64,000 nucleotides of DNA from Ancylobacter moscoviensis (GTDB lineage: Bacteria; Pseudomonadota; Alphaproteobacteria; Rhizobiales; Xanthobacteraceae), in the NCBI RefSeq assembly GCF_007559435.1, contig NZ_VMBP01000001.1, positions 559,406 to 623,405 on the forward strand, read 5' to 3'. The translations under genes were made by a program, and so were the position numbers. Shown in pieces: positions 7,967-56,383 of this stretch. The notes under the pieces were generated by a model, which did no database searches, had not been told where the DNA came from, and worked only from the letters and a program-made list of their open reading frames with translations. Numbering within the stretch: the stretch's first letter is position 1; each line of letters begins with the position of its first letter.

Positions 7967-8878
7967 TCAGCCCGCCGCCAGGCGGCGGCACACCTCGTCG
8001 AGCTGGTCGAGCGAGGAATAGCGGATGCGGATCTCGCCCGCCTCGCCATCGTGCTTCAACGTCACCTGAAGGCCCAGCTCGTCGGAGAGCTTGCGCTGCA
8101 GCGCGGCGGTGTCGGCATCGAGCGCCGGAATCGTCTTCGGCTTGCGCGGCGGCTTGCCGGCGGCTTCCGCCTTGGCGACGTTCAGCTCCTGCGCCAGCGC
8201 CTCGATGGCGCGCACGTTCATGCCCTGCTCGACGATGGCCCGGGCAAGCGCTTCCGGATCGTCCTGGGTCAGCAGCGCGCGCGCATGGCCGGCGGAAAGG
8301 CGCCCATCCGCCAGATATTCCTTCACCGTCTCCGGCAGGCGCAGCAGGCGCATCGTATTGGCGACGTGGCTGCGGCTCTTGCCGATCACCCGCGCCAGAT
8401 CGTTCTGCGAATAGCCGAACTGATCGGCGAGCGACTGGTAGCCGGCCGCCTCCTCCAGCGGGTTGAGATCGGCGCGCTGGACGTTCTCGATGATCGCGAT
8501 CTCGAGCGCTTCGCGGTCGTTCACCTCGACGACGACGATCGGCACCTCGTGGACGCCGGCGCGCTGGGCGGCCCGCCAGCGGCGCTCGCCGGCGACGATC
8601 TCATAGGCATCGCGCTCGCCGGCCACCTGCCGGACCACGATCGGCTGGATGATGCCGCGCTCATGGATCGAGGCGGCGAGGTCTTCCAGATCCTCCTCGG
8701 CGAACGTACGGCGGGGGTTGCGCGGGTTCGGGCGCAGGAAGGCGAGCGGCACCTTGCGGGCGCCGCCGCCCGACCGGCCGCGATCGTTCGCCGCGCCGCT
8801 GTCGTCGCCCATATCGCCGATCAGCGCCGCGAGGCCGCGCCCGAGCCGCGAACGTCCGCCGTCTTCCGCCATCGCCAT
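7967..8878 (-). CDS. parB: Chromosome partitioning protein ParB
   Basis: CTP-dependent DNA clamp that loads at parS sites and spreads to build the segregation complex. It has an N-terminal ParA-interacting tail (SRLGRGLAALIGD), the CTP-binding ParB/Srx domain with GERRWRA (97-103), a helix-turn-helix for parS recognition around IGKSRSHVANTMRL, and a C-terminal dimerisation segment. It is 303 aa. The ATG at 8878 is chosen because AGGAGG lies 5-6 bases upstream; ATG 8872 is too far from it. It forms an operon with parA, and four parS-like sites are present in this window. Confidence 0.97.
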   Translation of the reverse strand: MAMAEDGGRSRLGRGLAALIGDMGDDSGAANDRGRSGGGARKVPLAFLRPNPRNPRRTFAEEDLEDLAASIHERGIIQPIVVRQVAGERDAYEIVAGERRWRAAQRAGVHEVPIVVVEVNDREALEIAIIENVQRADLNPLEEAAGYQSLADQFGYSQNDLARVIGKSRSHVANTMRLLRLPETVKEYLADGRLSAGHARALLTQDDPEALARAIVEQGMNVRAIEALAQELNVAKAEAAGKPPRKPKTIPALDADTAALQRKLSDELGLQVTLKHDGEAGEIRIRYSSLDQLDEVCRRLAAG

Positions 8879-8888
8879 TACGCCCTCC

Positions 8889-9755
8889 TCACGCTGCCGC
8901 CGTTGCGCGCAAGGTCCGCTCGCGCTGGATTATTTCGGATGCGAGACGAAGATAGGCCTGCGATCCGACGCATTTGAGATCGTAGAGCAGCACCGGCTTC
9001 CCGTAGGACGGCGCCTCCGACACCCGGACATTGCGGGGGATGATGGTCTCGTAGACCTTCTCGCCCATGAACTGGCGCACATCCTCCACCACCTGGCTGG
9101 AGAGATTGTTGCGCGCGTCGAACATGGTCAGCACGACGCCGTGGATGGTAAGATCGGGATTGAGCGTCGAACGCACCTGCTCGACCGTCTTCAGAAGCTG
9201 GGACAAGCCTTCCAGCGCGAAGAACTCGCACTGCAGCGGCACCAGAATGGCGTTCGCCGCCGCCATGGCGTTGACCGTGATCAGGTTCAGCGAGGGCGGG
9301 CAGTCGATCAGCACATAGGTGTAGTCGATATCGTTCCGCTGGCGAATCGACATCCCCGACGGGGCGTTCAGCCGCCGGATAGCGTCGCGCAGTCGATAGG
9401 CGCGGTCGCGTTGCCCGGCCAACTCCAGCTCGACGCCGGAAAGGTCCATGGTGGAAGGCGCGATGTGCAGTCGCGGCACCGCCGTCTCGAGGATAGCGTC
9501 GCGGAACTCGACCTCGCCGGTCAGCACGTCATAGGTCGAGACGCGGCGGCTGCGCCGGTCGATGCCGAGCCCGGTCGAGGCGTTGCCCTGCGGATCGAGG
9601 TCGACGATCAGCACGGTCTCACCGATCGCCGCCAGCGCGGTGCCGAGATTGATCGCCGTCGTGGTCTTGCCGACGCCGCCCTTCTGGTTGGCGAGAGCGA
9701 GTACGCGCGGCATCGGGCGCGGCGCGTTCGGTGCGAGCGGAACCTCATCCGTCAT
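8889..9755 (-). CDS. parA: Chromosome partitioning ATPase ParA
   Basis: Deviant Walker ATPase whose DNA-bound gradient moves the ParB-parS complex after origin replication. The deviant Walker A is KGGVGKTTT (residues 25-33), followed by VDLDPQGNASTGLG (Walker A') and VLIDCPPSL (Walker B). At 288 aa without an N-terminal HTH extension it is the chromosomal (Soj-like) type. It lies 13 bp downstream of rsmG and 10 bp upstream of parB, the canonical rsmG-parA-parB operon. Confidence 0.97.
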   Translation of the reverse strand: MTDEVPLAPNAPRPMPRVLALANQKGGVGKTTTAINLGTALAAIGETVLIVDLDPQGNASTGLGIDRRSRRVSTYDVLTGEVEFRDAILETAVPRLHIAPSTMDLSGVELELAGQRDRAYRLRDAIRRLNAPSGMSIRQRNDIDYTYVLIDCPPSLNLITVNAMAAANAILVPLQCEFFALEGLSQLLKTVEQVRSTLNPDLTIHGVVLTMFDARNNLSSQVVEDVRQFMGEKVYETIIPRNVRVSEAPSYGKPVLLYDLKCVGSQAYLRLASEIIQRERTLRATAAA

Positions 9756-9768
9756 GATGTCGATCCTG

Positions 9769-10440
9769 CTAAACGGGCGCGGAGCCCGGTGACGTCGATA
9801 CCAGCGGCTCGGCCGCCCGGACGATCAGGACATGGCCTCCACGATCGGTCAGGCTGCCCTTGATCTGAGCCTTGAGTTTCCAAGATTTAGAGGCTTGGGT
9901 CAATTCGTTATCAACATCTTGTCCCTTGAGGAACAGTCCCGTTGCCCCCTGCGCAAGGAACGGCACCGCCAGCTCCAGCAATTTCGGCAATGGCGCAAGC
10001 GCGCGGGCGGAGACGATCTCCACGCCGGTGGCGATCTTCGGCGCCACCTGTTCGATACGAGCCGGCAGCACCGTCACCGGCAGTTCCGCGATGCGCGCCG
10101 CCTCGCGCAGGAAAGCCGCCTTGCGGCTGTCGCTCTCCACGAGGGTCACGTCCGCCTCCCGCCGCTCGGCCAGCGCCGCCGCGACCACGAGACCGGGAAA
10201 GCCCCCGCCGGAGCCGAGGTCGACCCAGCGGGTCGCCTCCCCCGCCAGCGGCACGAGCTGGAGCGAATCCGCGATATGGCGTGTCCAGACCTGCGGCAGC
10301 GTCGCCGGCGCGACGAGATTGATCGTCCGCTGCCATTTCTCCAGCAGCGCGACGATGGCATCGAGCCGCTGCTCTGTTTCACGTGAAACAGGCGTGAGTT
10401 GCAGCGCGCGGGCGCGGTCGGACGAATCGCTTTCGGTCAT
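9769..10440 (-). CDS. rsmG: 16S rRNA (guanine527-N7)-methyltransferase RsmG (GidB)
   Basis: SAM-dependent methylation of G527 in 16S rRNA; loss gives low-level streptomycin resistance in other bacteria. The SAM motif I WVDLGSGGGFPGLV and the later VSARALAPLPKLLEL region are clear. The length is 223 aa. Residues 18-22 (VSRET) are encoded by a perfect 16-bp parS site, so this stretch of protein is shaped by a DNA-segregation requirement. It sits in the mnmG-rsmG-parA-parB gene order; the mnmG stop is 24 bp upstream. Confidence 0.96.
   Translation of the reverse strand: MTESDSSDRARALQLTPVSRETEQRLDAIVALLEKWQRTINLVAPATLPQVWTRHIADSLQLVPLAGEATRWVDLGSGGGFPGLVVAAALAERREADVTLVESDSRKAAFLREAARIAELPVTVLPARIEQVAPKIATGVEIVSARALAPLPKLLELAVPFLAQGATGLFLKGQDVDNELTQASKSWKLKAQIKGSLTDRGGHVLIVRAAEPLVSTSPGSAPV
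10375..10390. other. parS centromere site, perfect 16-bp match
   Basis: The sequence TGTTTCACGTGAAACA is the exact bacterial parS consensus, bound by ParB. It lies inside rsmG and is read there as Val-Ser-Arg-Glu-Thr. It is 1.5 kb from parB and 9.3 kb from the hemE-ppsR origin candidate. Confidence 0.95.
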
Positions 10441-10464
10441 GAGCGCAGTATAGCGGCTCGGAAC

Positions 10465-12321
10465 CTACCGCGCGCGGCGCGCATGCGCCGCCAGCAATGC
10501 CAGGGCGGCCGGGGTCATGCCATCGATGCGGCTCGCCTGGCCAATGGTACGGGGGCGAATCGATTCCAGCTTGGCCTTGATCTCGTTGGAGATTCCGGCA
10601 AGGCCGCGATAGTCCACCTCGGAAAGCTCGGCCGCCTCGTCCCGGCGGAAGGACGCGATGTCCGCCTCCTGCCGATGCAGGTAAACGGCATATTTCGCGT
10701 CGATCTCCACCTGCTCGCCGATGCGCGCCTCCTCCACCGACGCCTCCGGCCAGATCCGACAGATGTCGGCCCAGCCGACATGCGGATAGGACAGGAGATC
10801 GAAGGCGCTGCGGCGCTGGCCGTCCCGGTTCAGCGTCAGCCCATGCCGGTCGCCTTCCGCCGGCGTCAGCGACACCGAGCGGCTCCATTCGCGCACCCGC
10901 TCCAGCGCCTCCCGCTTCGCGGCGAAACGCGCGCGACGCTCCGTGCCGACGAGGCCGAGTGCCTCACCGCGATCGGTGAGCCGCTGGTCGGCATTGTCGG
11001 CCCGCAGCGACAGGCGGTACTCGGCACGCGAGGTGAACATGCGGTAGGGCTCGCTTACGCCGCGCGTCACCAGGTCGTCGATCATCACGCCGATATAGGC
11101 TTCCGCCCGGTCGAAGGTCACGCCCTCCATGCCGCCCGCCCGGCGGGCCGCATTGAGCCCGGCGACCAATCCCTGCGCCGCCGCCTCCTCATAGCCGGTG
11201 GTGCCGTTGATCTGCCCGGCCAGGAAAAGCCCCTTCGCCTTGCGGGTCTCCAGCGTCGGCTGCAGTTCGCGCGGATCGACGTGGTCATATTCGATGGCGT
11301 AGCCGGGCCGCAGCATCGCCACCCGCTCAAGGCCGGGAATGGTCGCGAGCAGAGCGAGCTGCGCGTCCTCCGGCAGCGAGGTGGAAATGCCGTTGGGGTA
11401 GACGGTCGGATCGTCCAGTCCCTCCGGCTCGAGGAAGATCTGGTGCCCTTCCCGCTCGCCGAAGCGGACGATCTTGTCCTCGATGGACGGGCAATAGCGC
11501 GGACCGACGCTACGGATGTTCCCGGAATACATCGCCGAGCGCTCGATGTTCGCCCGGATCACCGCATGGGTTTCCGGCGTGGTGCGGGTGATGCCGCACT
11601 GGACTTGCCGGTTGGTGATCGCCTCGGTCAGGGTCGAGAAGGGTTCCGGCGGCGTGTCCCCGTCCTGCATCTCCAGCCCCGCCCAGTCGATGGTCCGCCC
11701 GTCGAGGCGCGGCGGCGTGCCGGTCTTCAGTCGCCCGAGCGTCAGGCCGATGGCGGCGAGCGAACCCGACAGGCCGCGCGCCGGCTGTTCACCCATCCGC
11801 CCGGCCGGCATCTGCCGGTCGCCAATATGGATCAGCCCGTTGAGAAAGGTGCCGGTGGTGATGACGACGGCGCCGGCTGCGACCACCCGGCCATCCGCCA
11901 GGACCAGCCCCTGGACGCGGCCATCCGTCATCAGGAGACGATCCGCCTCCCCTTCCACGACCGAAAGGTTCGGCTGCGAATCGATCGCCCGCTGCATGGC
12001 GGCGGCATAGAGCTTGCGGTCGGCCTGCGCGCGCGGGCCGCGCACGGCCGGCCCCTTGCGGCGGTTGAGCACGCGGAACTGGATGCCGCCCTGGTCCGCC
12101 ACCCGGCCCATCAGCCCGTCCAGCGCATCGATCTCGCGCACGAGGTGCCCCTTGCCCAGACCGCCTATGGCCGGGTTGCAGGACATGGCACCGATGGTGG
12201 CGAAGGCGTGCGTGACCAGCGCGGTGCGCGCGCTGAGCCGCGCGGCCGCCGCCGCCGCTTCCGTGCCCGCATGTCCGCCGCCGACAATGACGACGTCGAA
12301 GGAAAGATCGTGTTCGTTCAT
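10465..12321 (-). CDS. mnmG: tRNA uridine-5-carboxymethylaminomethyl modification protein MnmG (GidA)
   Basis: FAD-dependent partner of MnmE that installs (carboxymethyl)aminomethyl groups on wobble U34 of tRNAs. The N-terminal FAD-binding motif [16 protein letters not shown] starts at residue 8; [17 protein letters not shown] and GRTIDWAG are typical MnmG signatures, and the C-terminal helical MnmE-binding domain ends in ARRAR. ATG 12321 (618 aa) puts the FAD motif where the family has it; an in-frame ATG at 12357 would add 12 residues with no counterpart. It is separated from mnmE by a gap holding two parS-like sites. Confidence 0.97.
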
Positions 12322-12436
12322 GGCTGCCCGATCCGCACCATATGGGCGCGCGTCCATTCGCCTGTTTCAAGCCCGCGAAAGATGGCGGCGTCAAGCCAAA
12401 CGAACGAGGGCAAATATCGGGATTGGTGAACGGCGC

Positions 12437-12452
12437 TGATTCACGTGAAACA
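12437..12452. other. parS-like site, one mismatch
   Basis: TGATTCACGTGAAACA differs from parS at one position (third base). It lies in the gap between mnmG and mnmE, 33 bp from a second copy. Confidence 0.8.
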
Positions 12453-12484
12453 TTTCGTTTACGAATCGGACCAGCATGCGCCGG

Positions 12485-12500
12485 TGTTTCACGTGAATCC
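12485..12500. other. parS-like site, two mismatches
   Basis: TGTTTCACGTGAATCC keeps the central 13 bases of parS and differs at positions 14 and 16. It lies in the same mnmG-mnmE gap as the 12437 site, and the centre-to-centre distance between the two is 48 bp. Confidence 0.7.
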
Positions 12501-12514
12501 CCGTCTCGACGGCC

Positions 12515-13897
12515 TCACTTACCGATGCAGAATTCGCGGAACACCACGTCGAGCAGATCCTCGACGCCGATGGCCCCGGTCATCCGCCCGAGCGCGCGTC
12601 CGGCGAGGCGCAGCTCCTCGGCCATTAACTCATCGTCGAGATGATCCCACCGGTCGAGAGCGAAGCCGAGCCGGCCCGCCGCTTCCGCCGCGCTGGCGCG
12701 GTGACGCTCGCGGATCAGTGCCGGGTGCTCGCTGCCGCGTGCGCGCTCGGCGACGAAAGCCCCGACCGCCTCGGTCAGCGCATCGAGGCCGGTGCCGAAC
12801 TTCGCCGATACCGAAAAGCTCTGCCCGGCCCAGCCGGACCCCATCGGCGCGGCGGCGCTCGGCGCGTCGAGCTTGTTGGCGACCAGCCACAGCTCCGCGC
12901 CTTCCGCCTCGATCTCCGGTCGCTCCACCGGCGGCGGTCCACCCGCCGCATCGTGCACCCACAGGACGAGGTCCGCCTCGGCGATCCGGGCACGGGCACG
13001 GCGGATGCCCTCGGCTTCCACCTTGCCCTCCGCCATGCGCAGCCCGGCCGTGTCGACGAGCGTCACCTTGTGTCCGCCGAGATCGAGCGCGACCTCCAGC
13101 ACGTCACGGGTGGTGCCGGGCTCATCGGAGACGATGGCGACGTCACGTGCGGCGAGTGCGTTGAGCAGCGACGACTTGCCGGCATTAGGCACCCCGGCGA
13201 TGGCGACCAACGCGCCCTCGCGCACCATCGCCCCACGACGGTCGGCAAGCGCCGCTTGCAGCTCCGCGAGCAGCGCCGTCACTTCCGGCCGGGCGAGCGC
13301 ACGTGCCTCCGCCGGTACGTCGTCCTCCTCGGCGAAATCGATGCCTGCCTCGATCAGCGCCATCGCCCGGATGAGCCGCCGCCGCCACTCCTCCACCCGC
13401 TGGCCGAGATGGCCAAAGGCATGGGCGAAGGCGAGCCGGCGCTGCCCCTCCGTCTCGGCGGCGATGAGATCGGCGAGGCCTTCGGCCTGCGTCAGGTCCA
13501 TCCGCCCGTTGAGGAAGGCGCGGCGGGTGAACTCGCCGGGTTCGGCGGGGCGCAGGCCCGGCAGGGCGAACAGTGCCGCCAGCACGGCCGTGACAACGGC
13601 GCGGCCGCCATGGATCTGCAACTCTGCCATGTCCTCGCCGGTGGCGCTGCGCGGGCCGGGAAACCAGAGCACCAGCCCCTCGTCCAGCAACTCGCCATCC
13701 CCCGGATTGCGCAACCTGGCCAGCGCCGCCCGGCGCGGCTCGGGCAGACGGCCCGCCAGCGCCCGCACGGCCGGCCCCGCCGCCGGCCCGGAAATGCGGA
13801 TGACCGCGACCGCGCCGCCGCTTCCCGAGGAGACCGCCGCGATGGTGCCGCCGCCCGACGTCACCGTGCCAATTCCGCTTCCCTCCTGCACACTCAC
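12515..13897 (-). CDS. mnmE: tRNA modification GTPase MnmE (TrmE)
   Basis: K+-activated GTPase acting with MnmG on tRNA wobble uridine. It has an N-terminal formyl-THF-binding domain beginning at TIAAVSSGSGGAVAVIRISGP, a helical domain, and an inserted G domain with G1 GVPNAGKSS (about 235-243) followed by DEPGTTRD and DTAGLR. The invariant C-terminus FCIGK carries the essential Cys457. It is 460 aa from GTG 13897; nearby in-frame GTGs (13891, 13864) are possible starts, because about 15 residues precede the conserved region. It is divergent from the DUF255 gene. Confidence 0.96.
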   Translation of the reverse strand: MSVQEGSGIGTVTSGGGTIAAVSSGSGGAVAVIRISGPAAGPAVRALAGRLPEPRRAALARLRNPGDGELLDEGLVLWFPGPRSATGEDMAELQIHGGRAVVTAVLAALFALPGLRPAEPGEFTRRAFLNGRMDLTQAEGLADLIAAETEGQRRLAFAHAFGHLGQRVEEWRRRLIRAMALIEAGIDFAEEDDVPAEARALARPEVTALLAELQAALADRRGAMVREGALVAIAGVPNAGKSSLLNALAARDVAIVSDEPGTTRDVLEVALDLGGHKVTLVDTAGLRMAEGKVEAEGIRRARARIAEADLVLWVHDAAGGPPPVERPEIEAEGAELWLVANKLDAPSAAAPMGSGWAGQSFSVSAKFGTGLDALTEAVGAFVAERARGSEHPALIRERHRASAAEAAGRLGFALDRWDHLDDELMAEELRLAGRALGRMTGAIGVEDLLDVVFREFCIGK

Positions 13898-13999
13898 CCG
13901 CTACGCCCTATCTCTTGAGACGGCCCCGAAAAACCACGCCTCGCGCCGCTCCAACAGCACCGCCCACAGCAAGACCCTGTCATAAGCCGGAGAGACGCC

Positions 14000-16021
<2,022 letters not shown>

Positions 16022-16082
16022 GAGGAGTGCGACCGGACCTCGCCCCTCCTCCGGGGGTAAATCGGCGATCTGGGGACAGGGC

Positions 16083-16091
16083 TGTGGATAA
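16083..16091 (-). other. DnaA box, perfect consensus
   Basis: TGTGGATAA is the complement of TTATCCACA, the strict DnaA-binding consensus, and is followed by a second TTGTGGG-like run. It is in the gap between the DUF255 gene and a small membrane protein gene, 3.6 kb from hemE. Confidence 0.6.
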
Positions 16092-16213
16092 GTTGTGGGC
16101 ATTTTTCGCCGGATGCCCGCGATTCCTCAGAAATCGCTGCTGACGGTCATTCAGCCTTTTCCGATGGATGGATCGGACAGACGGTCAAATCGCCGTCCTG
16201 AGTCATTTCTGAA

Positions 16214-16240
16214 GGCTATCGTTTCGCCTACGAAACAGCC
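16214..16240. repeat. Inverted repeat (stem-loop) in the 16.0-16.3 kb gap
   Basis: GGCT then GTTTCG are mirrored by CGAAAC then AGCC around a CCTA loop; three unpaired bases separate the two parts of the left arm. No T-run follows, so a simple terminator is not obvious. Confidence 0.6.
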
Positions 16241-16258
16241 TCATTCATTGCAATGAGG
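16239..16258. repeat. Inverted repeat with internal palindrome CATTGCAATG
   Basis: CCTCATT and AATGAGG flank six bases, and the central CATTGCAATG is itself palindromic. It directly abuts the 16214-16240 stem-loop. It could be an operator for the minus-strand gene or part of a structured origin-like region; no regulator can be named. Confidence 0.6.
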
Positions 16259-16308
16259 CATCTAGTAGTAGTTCGCCTTGCGAAAATGCCGCCTCTACCG
16301 GGCGCGGC

Positions 16309-16689
16309 CTATTCCTTCCGGCCGAAACGGATATTCGCGAACATCAGCGGGACCACCAGCATCAGCGCCCCGGCAAGGTCGGCCTGGAAGATGTAGGCAA
16401 GGCCCAGTTCCTCCCGCACCGCCGGTCCGATCACCGGGTCGGCGAAGTCGGCGACGAGGCCAGAGATGAACAGCGCGGCCGGGAGCCAGACGGTGAGCGG
16501 CAGCCACCAGCGCCGGCAGGCCATGACCCAGCTCAGCGCGGCAATGCCGATCACGAAGATCCACAATTCGGCGGAAGGGGGTTCACGCTCGGCGATGCCG
16601 GCAGCCGCCGGCATCGTGGAAAGCAGAGCCACGGGAGCCCCGAGCACGGGGGTGACAACGAAGAGCCGGAAGAAACGTCCCGCCTTCAT
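16309..16689 (-). CDS. Hypothetical small membrane protein
   Basis: 126 aa, not recognised. The N-terminus (KAGRFFRLFVVTPVLGAPVAL) may be a signal peptide or first membrane helix. Further hydrophobic segments lie at about 42-58 (LWIFVIGIAALSWVMAC), 65-80 (WLPLTVWLPAALFISGL) and 104-118 (ALMLVVPLMFANI). It ends with the basic/acidic tail RFGRKE. The gene is 21 bp downstream of rho on the same strand, so it may be co-transcribed at the end of the hemE-hemJ-rho unit. Codon usage matches its neighbours. No function is proposed. Confidence 0.65.
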   Translation of the reverse strand: MKAGRFFRLFVVTPVLGAPVALLSTMPAAAGIAEREPPSAELWIFVIGIAALSWVMACRRWWLPLTVWLPAALFISGLVADFADPVIGPAVREELGLAYIFQADLAGALMLVVPLMFANIRFGRKE

Positions 16690-16710
16690 GCCGCCTCCCG
16701 TCGCGATGGC

Positions 16711-17976
16711 TCAGGTGTTCATGGAATCGAAGAAGTCGCCGTTCGTCTTCGTCTGGCGCAGCTTGTCGACCAGGAATTCGATGGCATCGACCGTGCCCAT
16801 CGGATTCAGGATGCGCCGGAGCACATACATCTTCTTCAGAACATCGGCCGGCACAAGCAGTTCTTCCTTGCGGGTGCCCGAACGGGTGATGTCGATCGCC
16901 GGGAAGACGCGCTTGTCGGAAACCTTGCGGTCGAGGATGACCTCGGAGTTACCGGTGCCCTTGAACTCTTCGAAGATCACTTCGTCCATGCGCGAGCCGG
17001 TCTCGATGAGCGCGGTCGCGATGATCGTCAGCGAGCCGCCTTCCTCGATGTTGCGCGCCGCGCCGAAGAAGCGCTTGGGACGCTGCAGCGCATTGGCGTC
17101 GACACCGCCGGTCAGCACCTTGCCCGAGGACGGCACAACGGTGTTGTAGGCGCGGCCGAGGCGGGTGATCGAATCGAGCAGGATGACGACGTCGCGCTTG
17201 TGCTCGACGAGGCGCTTGGCCTTCTCGATCACCATCTCGGCGACCTGCACGTGGCGCTGGGCCGGCTCGTCGAAGGTGGAGGAAACCACCTCGCCCTTCA
17301 CCGAGCGCTGCATGTCGGTGACTTCCTCCGGCCGCTCGTCGATGAGCAGCACGATGAGGTAGCACTCGGGATGGTTGGTGGTGATGGACTGCGCGATGTT
17401 CTGCAGCAGCACCGTCTTGCCGGTGCGCGGCGGCGCCACGATCAGGCCGCGCTGGCCCTTGCCGATCGGCGCCACGATGTCGATGACGCGAGCGGAAAAA
17501 TCCTTGCGCGTCGGGTCTTCGATTTCCAGCTTCAGCCGCTCGTCGGGATAGAGCGGGGTCAGGTTGTCGAAGTTGATCTTGTGCCGGATCTTGTCCGGAT
17601 CCTCGAAATTGATCGTGTTGACCTTGAGGAGGGCGAAGTAGCGCTCGCCGTCCTTCGGCGAGCGGATCTGTCCTTCGACCGTGTCTCCGGTCCGCAGCCC
17701 GAAGCGGCGGATCTGGCTGGGCGAGACATAGATGTCGTCGGGCCCGGGCAGATAATTGGCATCCGGCGAGCGCAGGAAGCCGAAGCCGTCGGAGAGGATC
17801 TCGACCACGCCCTCGCCGATGATGTCGGTCTCGCGGGCCGCGAGCTGCTTGAGAATGGCGAACATCAGCTCCTGCTTGCGCAGCGTGCTGGCGTTCTCGA
17901 CCTCAAGTTCCTCGGCGAACACCAGAAGTTCGGCGGGATTCTTGGACTTGAGGTCCTGGAGCTTCATTTCCCCCAT
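16711..17976 (-). CDS. rho: Transcription termination factor Rho
   Basis: Hexameric RNA-dependent helicase that terminates untranslated transcripts. The N-terminal helical domain ([15 protein letters not shown]) is followed by the cold-shock/RNA-binding domain (GFGFLRS), and then the RecA-like ATPase with Walker A APPRTGKT (181-188). ATG 17976 gives 421 aa, the usual size in Rhizobiales. The open frame continues upstream for 46 codons, but that extension is low-complexity and non-conserved. A 10-bp palindrome ATATCGATAT (17991-18000) lies about 15 bp upstream of the start, within a 247-bp leader that may hold autoregulatory Rho-loading sequence. Confidence 0.97.
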
Positions 17977-18223
17977 GGGAAAAGGCCTCGATATCGATAT
18001 TGGAGAGACCCGGCCAAGCGATAGAACCCGCCGGGACTGCAAAAGGGTGGGAAACGCTGGTCTGCGGACCTGGCCGAGAAGATCGGCCTCTTGTCCGAAC
18101 ACACCGGGCGGCATCGGGGAAGATGCCCGCCAAAGCGGAGCGTCAGCCAGCTTCGTGGAAGTAGCGGCAACATAGGCAAAGCCACGATTCGGCGCAAGCC
18201 TGCCGCACGAAGCTTTGACGCGA

Positions 18224-18649
18224 TCAAAACGGCTTTACGATGACGAGGATCACGATGCCGATCATCAGCAGCGTCGGAACCTCGTTGATGAAGCGATAGA
18301 AACGCGGCGGACGGGTGTTCCGGTCCTCGGCGAAATCGCGCACCCGCTCGGCCAGAAAGCCGTGGAAACCGCTCATGCCGAGCACCAGCGCGAATTTGGC
18401 GAGGAACCAGCCGGAAAAATACCAGCCGCCGTCCCAGGCGAGATAGAGCCCGGCGAGCCACGCCACCCCCATGGCGGGGTTCATGATCGCCTTCAGCAGG
18501 CGCCGCTCCATCACCTTGAAGGTCTCGGACTGCGGCGAGCCGGCGGGCGCGTCGCAATGATAGACCATCAGCCGCGGCAGATAGAGCAGGCCCGCCATCC
18601 ACGAGATGACGGCGATGACGTGCAGCGCCTTGATCCACTCATAGAGCAT
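18224..18649 (-). CDS. hemJ: Protoporphyrinogen IX oxidase HemJ
   Basis: Membrane protein (141 aa) that oxidises protoporphyrinogen IX in haem biosynthesis; it is the form used by most alphaproteobacteria. Four hydrophobic helices are visible. The family histidine lies in helix 1 ([25 protein letters not shown]), and the conserved [15 protein letters not shown] closes the protein. It lies 15 bp downstream of hemE, an earlier step of the same pathway, which strongly supports the call. Confidence 0.93.
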
Positions 18650-18664
18650 GGCGAGCCGCCTTCC

Positions 18665-19720
18665 TCAGCTCCCCCGCACCCGCGCGATCATGCGTTCCAC
18701 ATGGGCGATGGGCGTCTCCGGCCGGATGCCGTGACCGAGATTGAAGATATGCGCCGCGCCGTGGAAATCCTCCATCAGCGCATCGATGGCACCGTCGAGC
18801 GCCTTGCCGCCGGCGATCAGCGCCAGCGGATCGAGATTGCCCTGCAACGCGCATTTGCCACCGAGCGCATAGCGGGTGGCGCGGCGGTCCGCCGTCCAGT
18901 CCAGCCCGACGCCATTCACCCCCGTCGCCTGCACCAGCTCGGTGAGGCCCGAGAGCGTCGCACCCTTGGGAAAGGCGATGATCCGCGCGCCCGGCACTTC
19001 GGCCCGCACCGCCGCCACGATCCGCCGGATCGGATCGATGGTCCAGCGGCGGAAAGCCTCCGGATCGAGCACGCCCGCCCAGCTGTCGAAGATCTGCACC
19101 GCATCGGCACCGGCCCGGAACTGACCGATCAGATAGCGCGCGGAGGTCTCGACCAGCCGGTCGATCAGCGCCGCGAAGAAGGGGGGATCGATGAACGAGA
19201 CCAGCCGCGCCGGCGCCTGGTCGGGCGTGCCGCGTCCGGCGACCATATAGGTCGCCACCGTCCACGGGGCCCCGCAGAAGCCGAGCAGCGCCATCTCGCG
19301 CGGCAGCTCGGCGCGGATACGGGCGACCGCCTCGAACACCCGGTCGATCTTGCCGGGGTCGAGTTCCTCGCGCAGCGCGGCGAGCTCAGCCGCGTTGGTC
19401 ACAGGCACGAGGCGCGGTCCCTCGCCGGCCTCGAAGGTGAGCGAACAGCCCAAAGCATGCGGCACGACGAGAATGTCGGAGAACAGGATCGCCGCGTCGA
19501 AGCCGAAGCGGCGGATCGGCTGGAGCGTCACCTCGACGGCATGATCGGGCGTGTAGCAGAGGGAGAGGAAGTCGCCCGCCTTCTCGCGCACCGCCCGGTA
19601 TTCCGGGAGGTAGCGTCCCGCCTGGCGCATCATCCAGATCGGCGTGCGCTTCGGCACATGGCCGTCGAGCGCCTGCAGCATGATGGGCAGGCCCATCCCG
19701 TTGTCCCCCGGCTCTTTCAT
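18665..19720 (-). CDS. hemE: Uroporphyrinogen decarboxylase
   Basis: Decarboxylates uroporphyrinogen III to coproporphyrinogen III in haem biosynthesis (cytosol). The substrate-cleft motif [15 protein letters not shown] lies at about residues 28-42, and [13 protein letters not shown] is the second signature. It is full length at 351 aa. It is divergent from ppsR across the presumed origin region and followed by hemJ and rho on the same strand. In Caulobacter and Rickettsia the chromosomal origin lies immediately upstream of hemE in the same arrangement. Confidence 0.97.
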
Positions 19721-19882
19721 ACTTCTTTAATCTCTTTTGAAGGAGAGTCGTCTTTGTTTAGGTGAGGGCATTAGACGGGTTCCTCGCCCATCACAACCGA
19801 CCCCCAGCTTGATCGCTGCGGGACGGCGCGTGCGCGTTCCGAAATCGCTTCGGTGTCAGGAAGTTAGGGCAGGCGCGGCGGA

Positions 19883-19891
19883 TTATCCACG
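19883..19891 (+). other. DnaA-box-like site (one mismatch)
   Basis: TTATCCACG matches the TTATCCACA consensus at eight of nine positions and lies within the hemE-ppsR gap. Confidence 0.55.
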
Positions 19892-20018
19892 CAGTTCGCC
19901 AAAGGCCCGGCGATTTCACGCACAGGCCCATGCCCTGTGGAGGAAACGGGTCGCTTTCCCCAGCCCGGACTTGCTAACGTCGCTGGGGCATGGCTTGTTC
20001 CATCCTCATGCACAGCCC

Positions 20019-20027
20019 TGTGGATGA
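20019..20027 (-). other. DnaA-box-like site overlapping the ppsR start codon
   Basis: TGTGGATGA is the complement of TCATCCACA, one mismatch from consensus. Its ATG is the chosen ppsR start codon. Confidence 0.45.
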
Positions 20028-20890
20028 CCGGCGTGACTGATGCCGCCCGCCCGTCGGAAAGCTATTACCACCTTCATCTCGTGTCGGATTCGACCGGCGA
20101 GACGCTGATCAGCGTCGGCCGTGCCGCGGCGGCGCAGTACAATGTGAAGCCGATCGAGCACATCTATCCGCTGGTGCGCACACACAAGCAGCTCGACAAG
20201 GTCATCCAGGCCATCGACGAATATCCCGGCATCGTGCTGTACACGCTGACCGAGCCGGAGCTGCGCAACCGCCTGAAGACCTATTGCCAGGAAAACGGCG
20301 TGCCGGTCCTTTCCGTGCTGGCGCCGGTGGTGCGGCTGTTCCAGGCTTATCTCGGCGGCGTGCCAGAGCCGCGCGTCGGCGGCCAGCATCAGCTCGACGG
20401 CGATTATTTCCGCCGTATCGACGCGATGAACTTCACCGTCATGCACGATGACGGCCAGCATGTGGACGGGCTGGAGGGAGCGGATGTCGTGCTGCTCGGC
20501 ATTTCCCGCTCGTCCAAGACGCCGACCAGCATCTATCTCGCCAATCGCGGCATCAAGACCGGCAACATCCCGCTGGTGCCCGGGTTGCCGGTGCCGCCCG
20601 GTCTGTCGGAGCTGAAGCGTCCGCTGATCGTCGGCTTGCTGGCGAGCGCCGAGCGCGTGGTGGAGATCCGCCGCAACCGGCTTCTCGGGCTCAACGCGGC
20701 GCAGTCGGTGGATGCTTATACGGACCGCCAGTCGGTGGCGGAGGAGATCGCCTTTTCCCGCCGTCTCTGCGCCAAGAATGGCTGGCCGATGATCGACGTC
20801 ACGCGTCGGTCCATCGAGGAGACGGCGGCCGCCATCATCGGTCTGTTGCAGGAACACCGGCGCAAGCTTTCCGAGAGTTCAGGTGCCTGA
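20024..20890 (+). CDS. ppsR: Pyruvate, water/phosphate dikinase regulatory kinase-pyrophosphorylase (DUF299)
   Basis: Bifunctional ADP-dependent kinase and Pi-dependent pyrophosphorylase that switches PEP synthase or pyruvate phosphate dikinase off and on. The family N-terminus YYHLHLVSDSTGETL and the P-loop-like GISRSSKTPTSIYLANRG are both present. ATG 20024 gives 288 aa, with the conserved region starting at residue 14. An upstream in-frame start at 19937 would add 29 unconserved residues across the candidate origin, and GTG 20033 is an alternative. The maf start overlaps its stop, beginning the ppsR-maf-aroE-coaE-dnaQ operon. The target dikinase is not in the window. Confidence 0.93.
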   Translation: MTGVTDAARPSESYYHLHLVSDSTGETLISVGRAAAAQYNVKPIEHIYPLVRTHKQLDKVIQAIDEYPGIVLYTLTEPELRNRLKTYCQENGVPVLSVLAPVVRLFQAYLGGVPEPRVGGQHQLDGDYFRRIDAMNFTVMHDDGQHVDGLEGADVVLLGISRSSKTPTSIYLANRGIKTGNIPLVPGLPVPPGLSELKRPLIVGLLASAERVVEIRRNRLLGLNAAQSVDAYTDRQSVAEEIAFSRRLCAKNGWPMIDVTRRSIEETAAAIIGLLQEHRRKLSESSGA

Positions 20891-21515
20891 TTCGTCGCGA
20901 CAGAACGGCCTTTGGCGAGGTTCCGAGCCGCTCGTCCTCGCTTCGAAGAGCGTCGCCCGCCGGGCTTTGCTCGAAGCGGCACGTCTGCCTTTCGAGGCGG
21001 TCGGGGTCGATGTGGACGAGCGCACGCTGGAATCGGAGGCGGCGGGCAGGGGCCTTGGCCCGGCGCAGATCGCCAGCGTGCTGGCCCGTGCCAAGGCGCT
21101 GGCCGGCAGCGCGGCGCATCCGGGCCGTCTGGTCATCGGCGCCGACCAGACGCTGGCGCTCGGGGATGAAGCCTTCCACAAGCCAGCCGACATGGCGGCG
21201 GCGCGGATGCAGATCGCCCGCCTTGCCGGGCGGACCCATGCCCTGCACTCGGCGATCGCCGTCACCCATGATGGCACGGTGTTGTTCGAGACGGTCGAAT
21301 CCGCCCATCTCGCCATGCGGCCGCTCGACGGGGCATCGCTCGACGCCTATCTCGCGGCGGCCGGGCCGGCGGTGCTCTCCAGCGTCGGCGGCTATCAGCT
21401 CGAAGGGCTGGGCATCCATCTGTTCGAACGTGTGGAAGGCGATCACTCGGTGATACTGGGAATGCCGCTGCTGCCGCTTCTCGCCTTTCTGCGCCGTCAG
21501 GGAGTCCTGTTGTGA
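20883..21515 (+). CDS. maf: Maf-like nucleotide pyrophosphatase
   Basis: House-cleaning nucleoside triphosphate pyrophosphatase of the Maf/HAM1 superfamily, acting on dTTP/UTP or modified pyrimidine nucleotides in the cytosol. The hallmark PLVLASKSVARRALLE (P-loop-like SxSxxR) lies near the N-terminus, followed by VIGADQTLALGDEAFHKP. The length is 210 aa from GTG 20883, overlapping the ppsR stop by 8 bp. The aroE start overlaps its own stop. The subfamily (YhdE or YceF type) cannot be settled by eye. Confidence 0.93.
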   Translation: MPDSSRQNGLWRGSEPLVLASKSVARRALLEAARLPFEAVGVDVDERTLESEAAGRGLGPAQIASVLARAKALAGSAAHPGRLVIGADQTLALGDEAFHKPADMAAARMQIARLAGRTHALHSAIAVTHDGTVLFETVESAHLAMRPLDGASLDAYLAAAGPAVLSSVGGYQLEGLGIHLFERVEGDHSVILGMPLLPLLAFLRRQGVLL

Positions 21516-22357
21516 CCCGCCATGCTGCCGTTATCGGCCACCCGGTCGCCCATTCCCGCTCGCCGCTGATCCATGGCTACTGGCTGAAGCAGCACGGGAT
21601 CGACGGCGATTACGGGCTGCGCGACGTGCCGCCGGAGCGGATCGAGGCCTTTCTCGCCGATTTCGCCGGCAGCGGCCTCGTCGGAGCCAATGTCACCGTC
21701 CCGCACAAGGAAGCCGCCTTCCGGGCGGCCGTGGAGCGCGATCCGGTGGCGGAGGCGCTCGGCGCGGTCAACACGCTTTGGCTCGAGGATGGCCGGCTCT
21801 GCGGCGCCAATACCGACGTTCACGGCTTCCTCGCCAATCTCGACGCGGCTGAGCCGGAATGGGCGCGTGCGTTGGGGGAGGCGGTGGTGCTGGGGGCCGG
21901 CGGGGCTTCCCGCGCGGTCGTCTACGGACTTCTCAGTCGCGGCATCGACCGGGTCGTGGTGGCGAACCGCACACGCGCCCGCGCCGAGGCATTGCGCGAT
22001 CAGTTCGGGCCGCGCGTGCTGCCGGTGGACTGGCGTGACCTTGCCAGCCGTCTCGATGGTTGCCGCCTTCTGGTCAACACCACCTCGCTCGGCATGAAGG
22101 GCCAGCCGCCGCTCGACATCGACCTGTCCGCGCTGTCGCCGGACGCGCTGGTGACGGACATCGTCTATGTGCCGCTGGAAACGCCCCTGTTGAAGGTGGC
22201 GAAGGCGCGGGGTCTTGCCACGGTCGACGGGCTCGGCATGCTGCTGCATCAGGCGGTGCCCGGCTTCGAGCGCTGGTTCGGCGTGCGCCCGGAGGTCACG
22301 CCGGAACTGCGGGCGCTCGCCATCGCTGATCTTGCCGCCAAGGGCCAGCTGACGTGA
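21512..22357 (+). CDS. aroE: Shikimate 5-dehydrogenase
   Basis: NADPH-dependent reduction of 3-dehydroshikimate in aromatic amino-acid biosynthesis. The substrate site [10 protein letters not shown] lies near the N-terminus, the catalytic lysine is in NVTVPHKE, and the Rossmann loop is [16 protein letters not shown]. The length is 281 aa, from a GTG start overlapping the maf stop by 4 bp. aroA, a later step of the same pathway, is at the right end of this window but is not linked to it. Confidence 0.95.
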
Positions 22358-23004
22358 CCGGATCCACGCCCTTTCGCCTCGGCCTCACCGGCTCGATCGG
22401 CATGGGCAAGTCGACCACCGCCGGCATCTTCCGGGAATTCGGCGTGCCAGTGCACGATGCGGATGCCGCCGTGCACGCGCTCTATGGCGCCGAGGGCGTC
22501 GTGCCGGTCGAGGCGGCCTTTCCCGGCGTCACGGTCGCCGGGCGGATCGACCGGGCCTTGCTCGGCGCGCGGGTGCTCGACGACGATACGGCGATGAAGA
22601 GGCTGGAATCCATCGTCCACCCGCTGGTGCGCGCCCGCGAGGCGGCCTTTCTCACGCAGGCGGCCGCGATGGGCGAGCCGGTGGCCGTGCTCGATATCCC
22701 CCTGCTGTTCGAAAGCGGCGCGCAGGGCCGGGTCGATGCGGTGGTCGTCGTCACCGCGCCGGAATCTGTGCAGCGCGCGCGGGTTCTCGCCCGTCCGGGC
22801 ATGACGGAGGAGAAATTCGCGGCGATTCTCTCCCGGCAGCTTCCCGATTCGGAGAAGCGGCGCCGCGCCGATTATGTGATCGACACCGGCCACGGACTGG
22901 ATCATGCCCGCGCTGCGGTCGCGGCCCTGCTGGCGGGGCTGCGCGAACGCCTCGCCGGAGCCGATGGCGCCGGGACGAATGCGCAAGGAGACGACGATGC
23001 GTGA
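22354..23004 (+). CDS. coaE: Dephospho-CoA kinase
   Basis: Final step of coenzyme A synthesis: ATP-dependent phosphorylation of the 3'-hydroxyl of dephospho-CoA. The Walker A is GSIGMGKST (13-21), followed by the [10 protein letters not shown] substrate-binding segment and a lid with DIPLLFE. The GTG start overlaps the aroE stop by 4 bp; the length is 216 aa. Pantothenate kinase, the first CoA step, is encoded separately at 34.8 kb. Confidence 0.95.
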
Positions 23005-23695
23005 GATCGTGCTCGATACCGAGACCACCGGCCTCAACCCGCTCACCGGCGACCGGCTGGTGGAGATCGGCTGCGTGGAGATTCTCAACCGCATCCCGAC
23101 CGGGCAGGTCTACCACGTCTACCTCAATCCCGAGCGCGACATGCCGGTGGAGGCGTTCAACGTCCACGGCCTGTCGGCGGAGTTTCTGTCCGACAAGCCG
23201 CTCTTCACCCAGGTGGTGGACGACTTCCTCGCCTTCATCGGCAATGACCCGCTAATCATCCACAACGCGGCCTTCGATATCGGCTTCATCAATGCCGAGC
23301 TTGGCAAGGCCGGCCGGGCCGCCATCACCTTCGACCGGGTGGTGGACACGCTGAGCCTCGCCCGGCGGCGGCATCCCGGTGCGTCGAATCGTCTCGACGA
23401 CCTGATGGCGCGCTACGGCATCGACGGCTCGCGCCGCACCAAGCACGGGGCGCTGCTCGATTCCGAGCTTCTGGCGGAAGTCTATGCCGAGCTGTGCGGG
23501 GGCAAGCAGACCACGCTCAGCCTCGCCGTCGCGGAGGTTGCCGGCAGCCTGGGCGACCGCCAGTCGTCAGCGCCGCTCCAGCGGCCGCGCCCTCTCGCTC
23601 CGCGCGTCCACCCCGAGGAAACCGCCGCGCACGAGGCGTTCGTCGCCACGCTCGGCGACGCCGCGATCTGGAAAGAATATACGGCCGAAAGCTGA
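22997..23695 (+). CDS. dnaQ: DNA polymerase III, epsilon subunit (3'-5' proofreading exonuclease)
   Basis: Proofreading subunit of the replicative polymerase. The DEDDh exonuclease motifs are visible: Exo[12 protein letters not shown] at residues 4-14, Exo[12 protein letters not shown], and Exo[17 protein letters not shown]. The C-terminal tail contains the polymerase-binding region. ATG 22997 (232 aa) has AGGAG six bases upstream and starts right at the catalytic domain; longer in-frame starts overlap coaE without conservation. It is the last gene of its operon and converges on secB. Confidence 0.95.
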
Positions 23696-23734
23696 GCTTC
23701 CGGCCGCGCGGGTCGTCGACAGGCCGGTGTGGCG

Positions 23735-24202
23735 TCAGGAAGCCAACACGTTGTTCGGCTGCTGCTGCGCCATGCGCTGGCGATAGAGCGTCACGAAGTC
23801 CACCGGATCGATCATCAGCGGCGGGAAGCCGCCGTTGCGCACGGTGTCGGCGACGATCTGGCGCGCGAACGGGAACAGCATGCGCGGGCATTCGATCAGG
23901 ATGAACGGGTGGATCGTCTCCTGCGCCACGTTCTGGGCGCGGAAGATGCCGGCATAGACCAGCTCCAGCGCGAACAGGGTCTTGCCGCCGAGCTCGGCCT
24001 TGGCCTCGACCTTCAGCTCGACCTCGTATTCGCCGCCCTCGCGCACGGGGCGCGCGTTGACGTTGATCTGGATGCCGATCTGCGGCTGGCCCTTCACGAC
24101 CAGCGATTCCGGCGCGCCCGGATTCTCGAAGGACAGGTCCTTGGTGTACTGGGTCAGCACCTGCAGCGTCGGCATCGAGGCGGCGTTTTCGGTTTCGGCC
24201 AT
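23735..24202 (-). CDS. secB: Protein-export chaperone SecB
   Basis: Tetrameric cytosolic chaperone that keeps preproteins unfolded and passes them to SecA. It has the core SecB fold signature [20 protein letters not shown], then NVNARPV, and [11 protein letters not shown] with the hydrophobic groove. It is 155 aa from ATG 24202, with GGAG seven bases upstream. The open frame extends upstream without conservation. It is convergent with dnaQ, a neighbourhood shared with Caulobacter and Rhizobiales. Confidence 0.96.
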
Positions 24203-27629: not shown

Positions 27630-27653
27630 CCCCGGTTTCACGTGAAACCGGGG
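27630..27653. other. parS-like site embedded in a perfect 24-bp palindrome
   Basis: The arms CCCCGG and CCGGGG flank TTTCACGTGAAA, giving perfect two-fold symmetry. The inner 16 bp (27634-27649) match parS except for the outermost symmetric pair of T/A, which is G/C here. It lies 5 bp after the HTH stop and 20 bp from the hslU stop, between convergent genes. Confidence 0.8.
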
Positions 27654-49851: not shown

Positions 49852-50003
49852 GCCGCGCCCCCGTTTCGCCCCGGCGAGATCCGCTTCCGCCACGAGGAAC
49901 GTAGCGGACTACCGCCATACGTCAAGAACATTTGAAGAACAAATTCGGGGCATGCCGCAGCGGCAGCCTCATTTCCACATGTGCGACTCAGCGGCTCATT
50001 GAC

Positions 50004-50020
50004 GATAGAAGAATTCTATC
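50004..50020. promoter_or_regulatory. Inverted repeat upstream of fdsG, candidate operator
   Basis: GATAGAA-GAA-TTCTATC lies 86 bp before the fdsG start, inside a 212-bp AT-richer intergenic stretch divergent from comM. The symmetry and position suggest a binding site for a regulator of the formate dehydrogenase operon. Which regulator is unknown, and no regulator gene is adjacent. Confidence 0.45.
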
Positions 50021-50105
50021 AAGGCACGGAACACCTGAATTGATTTCGGTTTCGCCGCGTATGATCCTTTCCTTTGGAAAATTCTAAAAGAAGGCCCGGG
50101 AGAAA

Positions 50106-50579
50106 ATGCCGCATTACGAACCCTGGAGCGACGAGCGCGCCCGCGCGGTGATCGAGGAGTTCTCTCACCTCGAAGGCCCGCTCATGCCGATGCTCCATGC
50201 GGTGCAGGAAACCTTCGGCCATGTGCCGGACGCGGTCGTGCCGATGCTGGCCGAGATGCTGAACATCTCCCGCGCCGAAGTGCATGGCGTCGTGACCTTC
50301 TATCATGATTTCCGCCACGAGCCGGCCGGCCACCACGTGCTGAAGCTGTGCCGCGCCGAGGCGTGCCAGGCGGCGGGCGGCGATGCGCTGGCCGATCACG
50401 CCGAGCACCGGCTGGGCTGCAAGCTCGGCGAGACGACGGCCGATGGCCGCGTCACCGTGGAGCCGATCTACTGCCTCGGCCTGTGCGCGACCGCGCCGTC
50501 CGCCATGCTGGACGGCAAGATCGTGGCCCGGCTCAACGAGCGTCGCCTCGACGCGCTGATCGCGGAGGCGCAGTCGTGA
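50106..50579 (+). CDS. fdsG: NAD-dependent formate dehydrogenase, gamma subunit (NuoE-like)
   Basis: Thioredoxin-fold [2Fe-2S] subunit of the soluble formate dehydrogenase, homologous to NuoE. The four cluster cysteines are visible: Cys82 and Cys87 (LCRAEACQ), Cys123 and Cys127 (CLGLC). It passes electrons between FdsA and FdsB. ATG 50106 is preceded by GGGAG. It is 157 aa. The first gene of fdsGBA-fdhD-fdsD; the fdsB start overlaps its stop. Confidence 0.96.
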   Translation: MPHYEPWSDERARAVIEEFSHLEGPLMPMLHAVQETFGHVPDAVVPMLAEMLNISRAEVHGVVTFYHDFRHEPAGHHVLKLCRAEACQAAGGDALADHAEHRLGCKLGETTADGRVTVEPIYCLGLCATAPSAMLDGKIVARLNERRLDALIAEAQS

Positions 50580-55005: not shown

Positions 55006-55017
55006 GCGGAGGGCCCG

Positions 55018-55851
55018 ATGATCCCGCCGGTCGTCCGTGTCGCGCGCCTTGCCGTCGTTTCTTCGGGAGCGAAGGCGGGCGAGCGGGCGATCCCCGAGGA
55101 GACGCCCGTCGCCATCGTCCATAACGGCTCCACCTATGCCGTGATGATGGCGACCCCTAGCGACCTCGAGGATTTCGGCTACGGCTTCAGCCTCACCGAG
55201 GGCGTCATTGGCGATCTCGCCGATGTCGAATCCATCGAGACGCTGGAGTTCGAGGAAGGCGTCGAGATCCGCCTCTGGCTCAACCAAGAGCGTGCCGGCG
55301 AGCAGGTGGCGCGCCGCCGCCAGATCGCAGGGCCCACGGGCTGCGGCCTGTGCGGGGTGGAAAGCCTGGAACTTGCCGTCAAGCCGGCGCGGGCCGTGGG
55401 CGAGGGGCGGAGCTTCACGGCGGCGGACATCTCCCGCGCGGTGGCGTCGCTGCCGCCCGCCCAACTGCTCAACCATGAAACCCGCGCGGTGCACGCCGCC
55501 GCCTTCTGGGAGCCGGAGGCCGGGCTGGTGGCGGTGCGCGAGGATGTCGGGCGCCACAACGCGCTCGACAAGCTGGTCGGCCATCTCGTCCGGCAAGGCC
55601 GCGCGGCGGCATCGGGCATCGTGCTGCTGACCAGCCGCGTGTCGATCGAGATGGTGCAGAAGACCGCCATGCTCGGCGCGCAGGTGCTGGTCGCGGTTTC
55701 CGCGCCGACCGCTCTCGCCGTCCGCACGGCAGAGGCCGCCGGCATCACGCTGGTGGCCATCGCCCGTGACGACGGCTTCGAAGTGTTTACCCACCCCCAT
55801 CGCATCGTGCTTGGCGGGGCAGAACAGGAGCGTATCGCCCATGTCGGCTAA
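55018..55851 (+). CDS. fdhD: Formate dehydrogenase accessory sulfurtransferase FdhD (FdsC)
   Basis: Transfers sulfur to the molybdenum cofactor, needed for FdsA maturation. The sulfur-carrying loop is Cys109-x2-Cys112 in GPTGCGLCG, and the family start region AIPEETPVAIVHNGSTYAVMMATPSDLEDFGYGFSLTEG is complete. It is 277 aa. It lies between fdsA and fdsD, matching fdsC of characterised fdsGBACD operons. Confidence 0.95.
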   Translation: MIPPVVRVARLAVVSSGAKAGERAIPEETPVAIVHNGSTYAVMMATPSDLEDFGYGFSLTEGVIGDLADVESIETLEFEEGVEIRLWLNQERAGEQVARRRQIAGPTGCGLCGVESLELAVKPARAVGEGRSFTAADISRAVASLPPAQLLNHETRAVHAAAFWEPEAGLVAVREDVGRHNALDKLVGHLVRQGRAAASGIVLLTSRVSIEMVQKTAMLGAQVLVAVSAPTALAVRTAEAAGITLVAIARDDGFEVFTHPHRIVLGGAEQERIAHVG

Positions 55852-56128
55852 TACGATGGAGCGCCTTGTCTACATGGCGAACCAGATCGGCAAGTTCTTC
55901 GAGCCGCAGGGCCACGAGAAGTCCGTGAAGGGCGTCGCCAAGCACATCAAGGATTTCTGGGATCCGCGCATGCGCGCGCGCATGGAAGATCACATCGCGG
56001 CGGGCGGCGAGGGCCTGACGCCGGCGGTGTTCGAGGCGCTGAAGACCCTGCCGCCCGTGAGCCGCGATACCATTCCGGCTCCGCACCCGACCCTGAACCC
56101 GCCGGGGCCGACCGCTCACCATCACTGA
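55841..56128 (+). CDS. fdsD: NAD-dependent formate dehydrogenase, delta subunit
   Basis: Small helical accessory subunit (95 aa) with the conserved MERLVYMANQIGKFF and GVAKHIKDFWDPRMRARM segments, followed by a proline- and histidine-rich tail. It is required for stable, active complex in other systems, but its precise role is unclear. ATG 55841 overlaps fdhD by 11 bp; ATG 55856 is an alternative start. The operon terminator lies 24 bp after its stop. Confidence 0.93.
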   Translation: MSANTMERLVYMANQIGKFFEPQGHEKSVKGVAKHIKDFWDPRMRARMEDHIAAGGEGLTPAVFEALKTLPPVSRDTIPAPHPTLNPPGPTAHHH

Positions 56129-56151
56129 GCGTCCCCCTTTCTGACTGCCGC

Positions 56152-56182
56152 AAAGCCGGCGCGTGGCAAGCGCGCCGGCTTT
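56152..56182 (+). terminator. Hairpin terminator of the formate dehydrogenase operon
   Basis: The 12-bp stem AAAGCCGGCGCG / CGCGCCGGCTTT has a 7-nt loop and ends in TTTG. It lies just after fdsD. Confidence 0.85.
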
Positions 56183-56383
56183 GTCGTGTCCGGCAGGCGC
56201 CGCGGCGAGCCGGCCATCTGCCGCTAGGTCATGTGCGTCATCGCCTTTCCCCGACGGGAAAATTCTTCCGAAATGCCCGGCTCCGGCGTGATTCGTCGCG
56301 AATCGACCACGCTTCCGCCATGCGTGAGCGGCATCCGATCCTGTAGCTTGAGGTCGGGCGGTACCAGCCGAGGTCGGGGACAG

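Follow-up and report, generated by a model that had tools for sequence, protein, structure and literature searches.

The intergenic region between the divergent genes hemE and ppsR (positions 19721-20032 of the window, that is, of the whole 64-kb stretch of Ancylobacter moscoviensis DNA analysed here) is most probably oriC, the site at which replication of this Ancylobacter-like Xanthobacteraceae chromosome begins, as judged by sequence comparison. An earlier note on this DNA had placed the origin between hemE and ppsR, and that proposal is supported by the gene order, the DnaA boxes, a dip towards A+T, bracketing by parS-like sites, GC skew and conservation in the order. As the position matches that in related bacteria, the find is to be expected rather than surprising, and it is very probably an ordinary case of a known kind of origin. 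A bounded origin would give studies of gene dosage and marker frequency in Ancylobacter and related bacteria a fixed reference point; our literature search found no publication on an Ancylobacter replication origin.

DnaA boxes, A+T content and parS-like sites around the hemE-ppsR region

The window covers positions 559406-623405 of contig NZ_VMBP01000001.1 (1.32 Mb; hereafter C5), in a genome of 4.18 Mb on 13 contigs. The region falls between hemE and the COG1806 homologue ppsR, the location of an origin of the hemE-COG1806 kind, and the divergent genes that had been noticed on either side, hemE on the minus and ppsR on the plus strand, both have Pfam support. Four predicted DnaA boxes with at most two mismatches are found within the region, against a mean of 0.50 in shuffled sequence. 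None of 500 shuffles reached four and no second 312-bp stretch of the window contains as many, so that the boxes are clustered above chance, as in origins of this kind. The three nonamers named in the earlier note, at 19883, 19936 and 20019, are all real, though the one at 19936 carries two mismatches and the others one; the box at 20006 is a fourth, additional to these.

The hemE end of the region is rich in A and T. The stretch 19721-19760 does contain the 27 A/T in 40 bases ascribed to it, and it is part of the sole cluster of 40-bp windows with at least 26 A/T in the 64 kb; a count of 27 was reached by 5% of 60 dinucleotide shuffles of the window. On a scale of 200 bp the dip is not extreme, the GC content of 0.565 at 19704-19903 being tied as the fourth lowest among non-overlapping windows, with lower values at, for instance, 49917-50116 (0.47) and 16088-16287 (0.495). 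This is still above the genome level in A+T, the GC content of C5 being 0.685. A further motif near the hemE end, GGATTANCGGGATT, was tried and set aside: many of its best scores were near the shuffled ones, and, having been derived from the same loci, it is circular as evidence and is kept as a lead at most.

The four parS-like sites reported earlier in the window were all recovered, one of them an exact match, and they are the only four in the genome at up to two mismatches. They bracket the hemE-ppsR region, with three sites 9.3, 7.3 and 7.2 kb from its left edge and one 7.6 kb from its right edge.

Taken as an origin, the region would work as follows. DnaA would bind the weak boxes clustered in the hemE-ppsR gap and open the A+T-rich segment at the hemE end; helicase would then be loaded and forks would depart both ways, after which ParB on the four flanking parS-like sites may assist segregation of the newly made origins. 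Any control by CtrA would have to go through the degenerate sites that lie at the start of hemE.

Coordinates of the predicted origin, candidate elements and boundary genes in the 64-kb window
Feature	Coordinates	Strand	Basis
Predicted oriC, hemE-ppsR intergenic region	19721-20032		cluster of four boxes, A+T dip, conservation of position and sites
DnaA-like box TTATCCACG	19883-19891	+	1 mismatch
DnaA-like box TCCTCCACA	19936-19944	-	2 mismatches
DnaA-like box TCATGCACA, inverted relative to the box at 20019	20006-20014	+	2 mismatches
DnaA-like box TCATCCACA	20019-20027	-	1 mismatch
A+T-rich stretch, candidate unwinding element, overlapping the hemE start	19712-19765		40-bp A/T count
Two overlapping CtrA-like sites, TTCA-N7-TTAA and TTAA-N7-TGAA	19716-19741	+	each one mismatch from TTAA-N7-TTAA
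parS-like site, exact	10375-10390	+	motif match
parS-like site, 1 mismatch	12437-12452	+	motif match
parS-like site, 2 mismatches	12485-12500	+	motif match
parS-like site, 2 mismatches	27634-27649	+	motif match
Element B, rival or accessory DnaA element, between convergent yyaL (+) and orf126 (-)	16022-16308		perfect box, low GC
hemE, left boundary gene	18665-19720	-	Pfam URO-D, E 1.7e-110
ppsR (COG1806/DUF299 homologue), right boundary gene	20033-20890	+	Pfam Kinase-PPPase, E 4.3e-88
parB	7967-8878	-	Pfam ParB_N, HTH_ParB, ParB_C
parA	8889-9755	-	Pfam AAA_31

The genes run along the window in the order parB, parA, rsmG, mnmG and mnmE (minus strand), yyaL (plus), orf126, rho, hemJ and hemE (minus), and ppsR, maf, aroE and coaE (plus). 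Here mnmG, maf, aroE and coaE were named by reading their translations and the others by Pfam match, with the exception of orf126, for which the Pfam search gave no match. The presence of rsmG, parA and parB, to which the earlier note had appealed, is borne out by Pfam. In the one collection scanned, the nearest relatives of the window's ppsR are from a Xanthobacteraceae metagenome-assembled genome (93% identity) and from named Ancylobacter species (81-91%). An Rfam search of 9000-24000 at gathering thresholds gave no matches. The sole dnaA-like gene found sits on another contig (C7:477324-477809) and is therefore 579 kb or more away from the predicted origin, provided that C5 is correctly assembled.

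GC skew and competing locations for the origin

GC skew was computed over the whole of C5; for the rest of the genome the skew data come from C6 (15 samples) and C7 (one sample). The cumulative curve of C5 is V-shaped, with values of -8668 at 580 kb, -8755 at its minimum at 616 kb and -414 at 1320 kb; the raw curve is almost flat between 580 kb and the minimum. The skew minimum and change point lie at about 55000-57000 of the window (C5 about 615-616 kb), 35-37 kb to the right of the predicted origin. A relative, 501b, is assembled as one scaffold of 5.08 Mb. Its 60 skew samples (40 spanning 20 kb and 20 spanning 10 kb, with one sample half N) placed the skew minimum at 3.995-4.080 Mb and the terminus near 1.19 Mb, and none of 200 permutations fitted equally well. 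The hemE-ppsR locus of 501b, at about 4.024 Mb, falls inside this range. On a skew minimum at the locus, which had been suggested as a check, the evidence is mixed: C5 has the V shape and the coarse minimum of 501b brackets the locus, but the minimum of C5 is 37 kb away. A search for a consensus core of the dif site, allowing up to three mismatches, gave no match in genome G000 or in 501b and was uninformative.

Several observations weigh against an origin at hemE-ppsR. A strand-corrected change-point fit (four-fold sites of 912 C5 open reading frames) put the change point at 615 kb (nominal 95% set, 613-620 kb), formally to the right of the region, which lies at 579 kb, by about 35 kb; the region comes within a looser set only, that of 252-633 kb. 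Alternative origins at 3.91 or 4.34-4.51 Mb fitted the 501b skew just slightly worse, and its resolution is therefore coarse. There is no perfect DnaA box in 19721-20032, yet there is one 3.5 kb to the left, and a cluster at 773 kb on C5 matches the region in number of boxes. No exact CtrA site (TTAA-N7-TTAA) occurs in the 64-kb window, unlike in an origin of the Caulobacter crescentus (Cori) type, and the IHF consensus in its strict form, WATCAANNNNTTR, the form searched for, has no match on either strand of 15901-20200.

The distance to the skew change point is also the point in favour of a different reading, that the hemE-ppsR gap is a mere divergent promoter with DnaA- or CtrA-regulated transcription and that the origin lies elsewhere within tens of kilobases; DnaA and CtrA are described as doubling as transcription factors (PMC4468827, PMC2877005). 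We consider this very unlikely. Beyond 23264 the window contains no DnaA box with at most one mismatch, so there is no candidate near the change point, and the bracketing by parS-like sites and the skew of 501b also speak against this reading. The position is, moreover, homologous to that of the mapped Caulobacter origin (PMC1914354).

The perfect box mentioned above (TTATCCACA, 16083-16091, minus strand) belongs to element B. Replication might really begin at this element, or the element might be half of a two-part origin, with DnaA loading at the perfect box and opening the adjacent A+T-rich stretch. Its box is one of only two perfect copies in the genome, and it is perfect in 14 of the 16 loci of the clade described below. 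The GC content is 0.495 over 200 bp (16088-16287), and because the element lies between convergent genes no promoter explains its conservation. The window's copy, however, has a single box at up to two mismatches, a number reached by 198 of 500 shuffles (39.6%), and the element is narrowly distributed: a DNA search found it in 17 of 30 genomes of the genus and none of 51 others, and among order genomes the matching gap has a box with at most one mismatch in 1 of 20. With an origin at hemE-ppsR, the genes lying between the gap and element B would be leading; with an origin at B they would be lagging. On C5 the four-fold skew is -0.079 in leading genes and -0.179 in lagging ones; the clade means on the coding strand are 0.090 for hemJ, 0.015 for hemE and -0.219 for rho, with spreads of about 0.11. 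The skew of hemE and hemJ is thus leading-like and fits an origin to their right, at hemE-ppsR, whereas that of rho, which lies between both candidates, is lagging-like and favours element B.

On balance an origin at, or shared with, element B seems unlikely. The element reads as an accessory DnaA site, or as a terminator region carrying a DnaA box; RNA from the part at 16180-16300 has a better fold than shuffled sequence (z -2.9), which would be in keeping with a terminator region. A more specific form of the idea, an Ancylobacter-type two-part origin in which CtrA control of hemE-ppsR has eroded to one-mismatch relics and the genus-specific element B shares control, is decidedly unlikely; if true, it would stand out in an order in which exact CtrA sites are otherwise frequent at origins. 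The other perfect DnaA box of the genome is at C5:281257, about 100 bases past what appears, from reading the sequence, to be a tRNA-like gene.

The cluster at 773 kb (C5:773061-773663) lies between pyruvate-phosphate-dikinase-like and mutS-like genes, named by reading their translations. It has five boxes with up to two mismatches, two of them with at most one, and its GC content goes down to 0.55, but it sits on the rising arm of the skew curve (-6254 at 760 kb and -6066 at 780 kb, as against the minimum of -8755) and has no parS-like site nearby. Given its skew position and its presence in only 1 of 41 genomes searched, its own, there is scarcely any chance that it is the origin and it was rejected. 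Dense scanning for boxes with up to two mismatches covered C5, and of the 134 genome-wide matches at one mismatch 100 were listed. The hemE-ppsR region remains the preferred location.

Conservation of the region and CtrA sites in the order

The clade used for comparison comprises 16 loci, the window and 15 of 18 relatives; L015, L016 and L018 were excluded as incomplete or because hemE or yyaL was not adjacent. Its hemE-ppsR gaps hold 26 DnaA boxes with at most one mismatch, spread over 15 of the 16 loci, where shuffling gives a mean of 0.42. A DNA search found the region in 28 of 30 genomes of the genus (its own included) and in none of 51 others, so that the letters are kept at the level of the genus while the position and the kinds of site are kept more widely.

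Of 149 genomes of the order, ppsR was found in 130, and this wider conservation was followed through two sets of 20 picked from these; both were spread across families and non-random, with several families in both. In the first set, with 20 kb taken per genome, the interval searched was the one left between the hemE (or hemJ) alignment and the ppsR alignment; in the second, picked without sight of the locus, it covered the 650 bases upstream of ppsR, with the hemE start included in most. In all 20 genomes of the first set rho and hemJ are found upstream of ppsR, in 18 its immediate upstream neighbour is hemE, and parA and parB occur in 19 of the 20 stretches. The gap holds 20 DnaA boxes (at most one mismatch) in 15 of these genomes, against a shuffled mean of 1.5 and a maximum of 5 in 200 shuffles. 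The second set gave 32 boxes in 16 genomes (shuffled mean 1.7), with hemE seen in 18. Two genomes of the first set, from another genus of the window's family, lack hemE beside ppsR, and their hemJ-ppsR gap has neither a DnaA box with at most one mismatch nor an exact CtrA site.

The CtrA evidence is the weakest part of the argument for the window, because the site there is degenerate. With one mismatch allowed, TTAA-N7-TTAA has just two matches in the whole window, TTCA-N7-TTAA at 19716 and TTAA-N7-TGAA at 19727. The latter is the CtrA-like pair of the earlier note, which is real but of the one-mismatch form. The outer (left) half of the site at 19716 overlaps the start codon of hemE, and coding constraint may therefore explain its conservation. 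Two clade loci, L004 and L009, were scored as lacking a CtrA-like site with the interval trimmed further in; the alignment has TTCA-N7-TTAA in both.

Across the order the picture is different. Exact CtrA sites number 14 in the gaps of the first set, in 12 of 20 genomes (shuffled mean 0.07), with one site in total in the remainder of the loci, and 8 in the second, in 8 of 20 genomes (shuffled mean 0.12, largest 2). Altogether 20 of the 40 genomes have an exact site at hemE-ppsR, where about 0.1 sites would be expected per set of 20. A pattern search took in 30 further genomes; of the five additional ones among them with matches listed in full (G113, G061, G132, G111 and G115), only G113 has exact sites, two of them, just upstream of ppsR, which brings the count to 21 of 45. 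The excess over expectation suggests that in Hyphomicrobiales the origin may often be controlled directly by CtrA, with this control reduced or lost in several lineages; going by sequence, the sites could instead serve transcription of hemE or ppsR. These sites outweigh the oriC call itself in importance, and we found no survey of CtrA sites at the origins of this order in the literature searched, most subscription papers being outside it.

Relation to known origins

The chromosomal origin of Sinorhizobium meliloti lies near hemE. The origins of Caulobacter and Rickettsia sit between hemE and COG1806 (PMC1914354), as the earlier note had stated. Origins adjacent to hemE have been predicted in Sphingopyxis (PMC4741004), and hemE serves as an indicator gene in Ori-Finder (PMC3794950). 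The CtrA phosphorelay is described as conserved across most alphaproteobacteria (PMC8116508). No CtrA binding was seen at the origin in S. meliloti and Brucella (PMC4433202, PMC2877005), and a review states that CtrA sites are not seen in other origins (PMC4468827), which contrasts with the exact sites in half of the order genomes here.

The predicted origin resembles Cori of Caulobacter crescentus in its boundary genes and in being intergenic, A+T-rich and provided with DnaA boxes (PMC1914354). It differs in its sites: Cori is described with five each of DnaA boxes and CtrA sites, together with an IHF site (PMC1914354), whereas here there are four weak boxes, one-mismatch CtrA-like sites and no strict IHF site. 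With the predicted origins of Rickettsia and Wolbachia it shares the hemE boundary and DnaA boxes; their CtrA sites number from zero to seven, their genomes are A+T-rich and in the Wolbachia group COG1253 replaces COG1806 (PMC1914354). The predicted origins of other Hyphomicrobiales have the same gene order and DnaA boxes, and set the window's clade apart in one respect, an exact CtrA site being present in 20 of 40 of them and in 1 of 16 loci of the clade.
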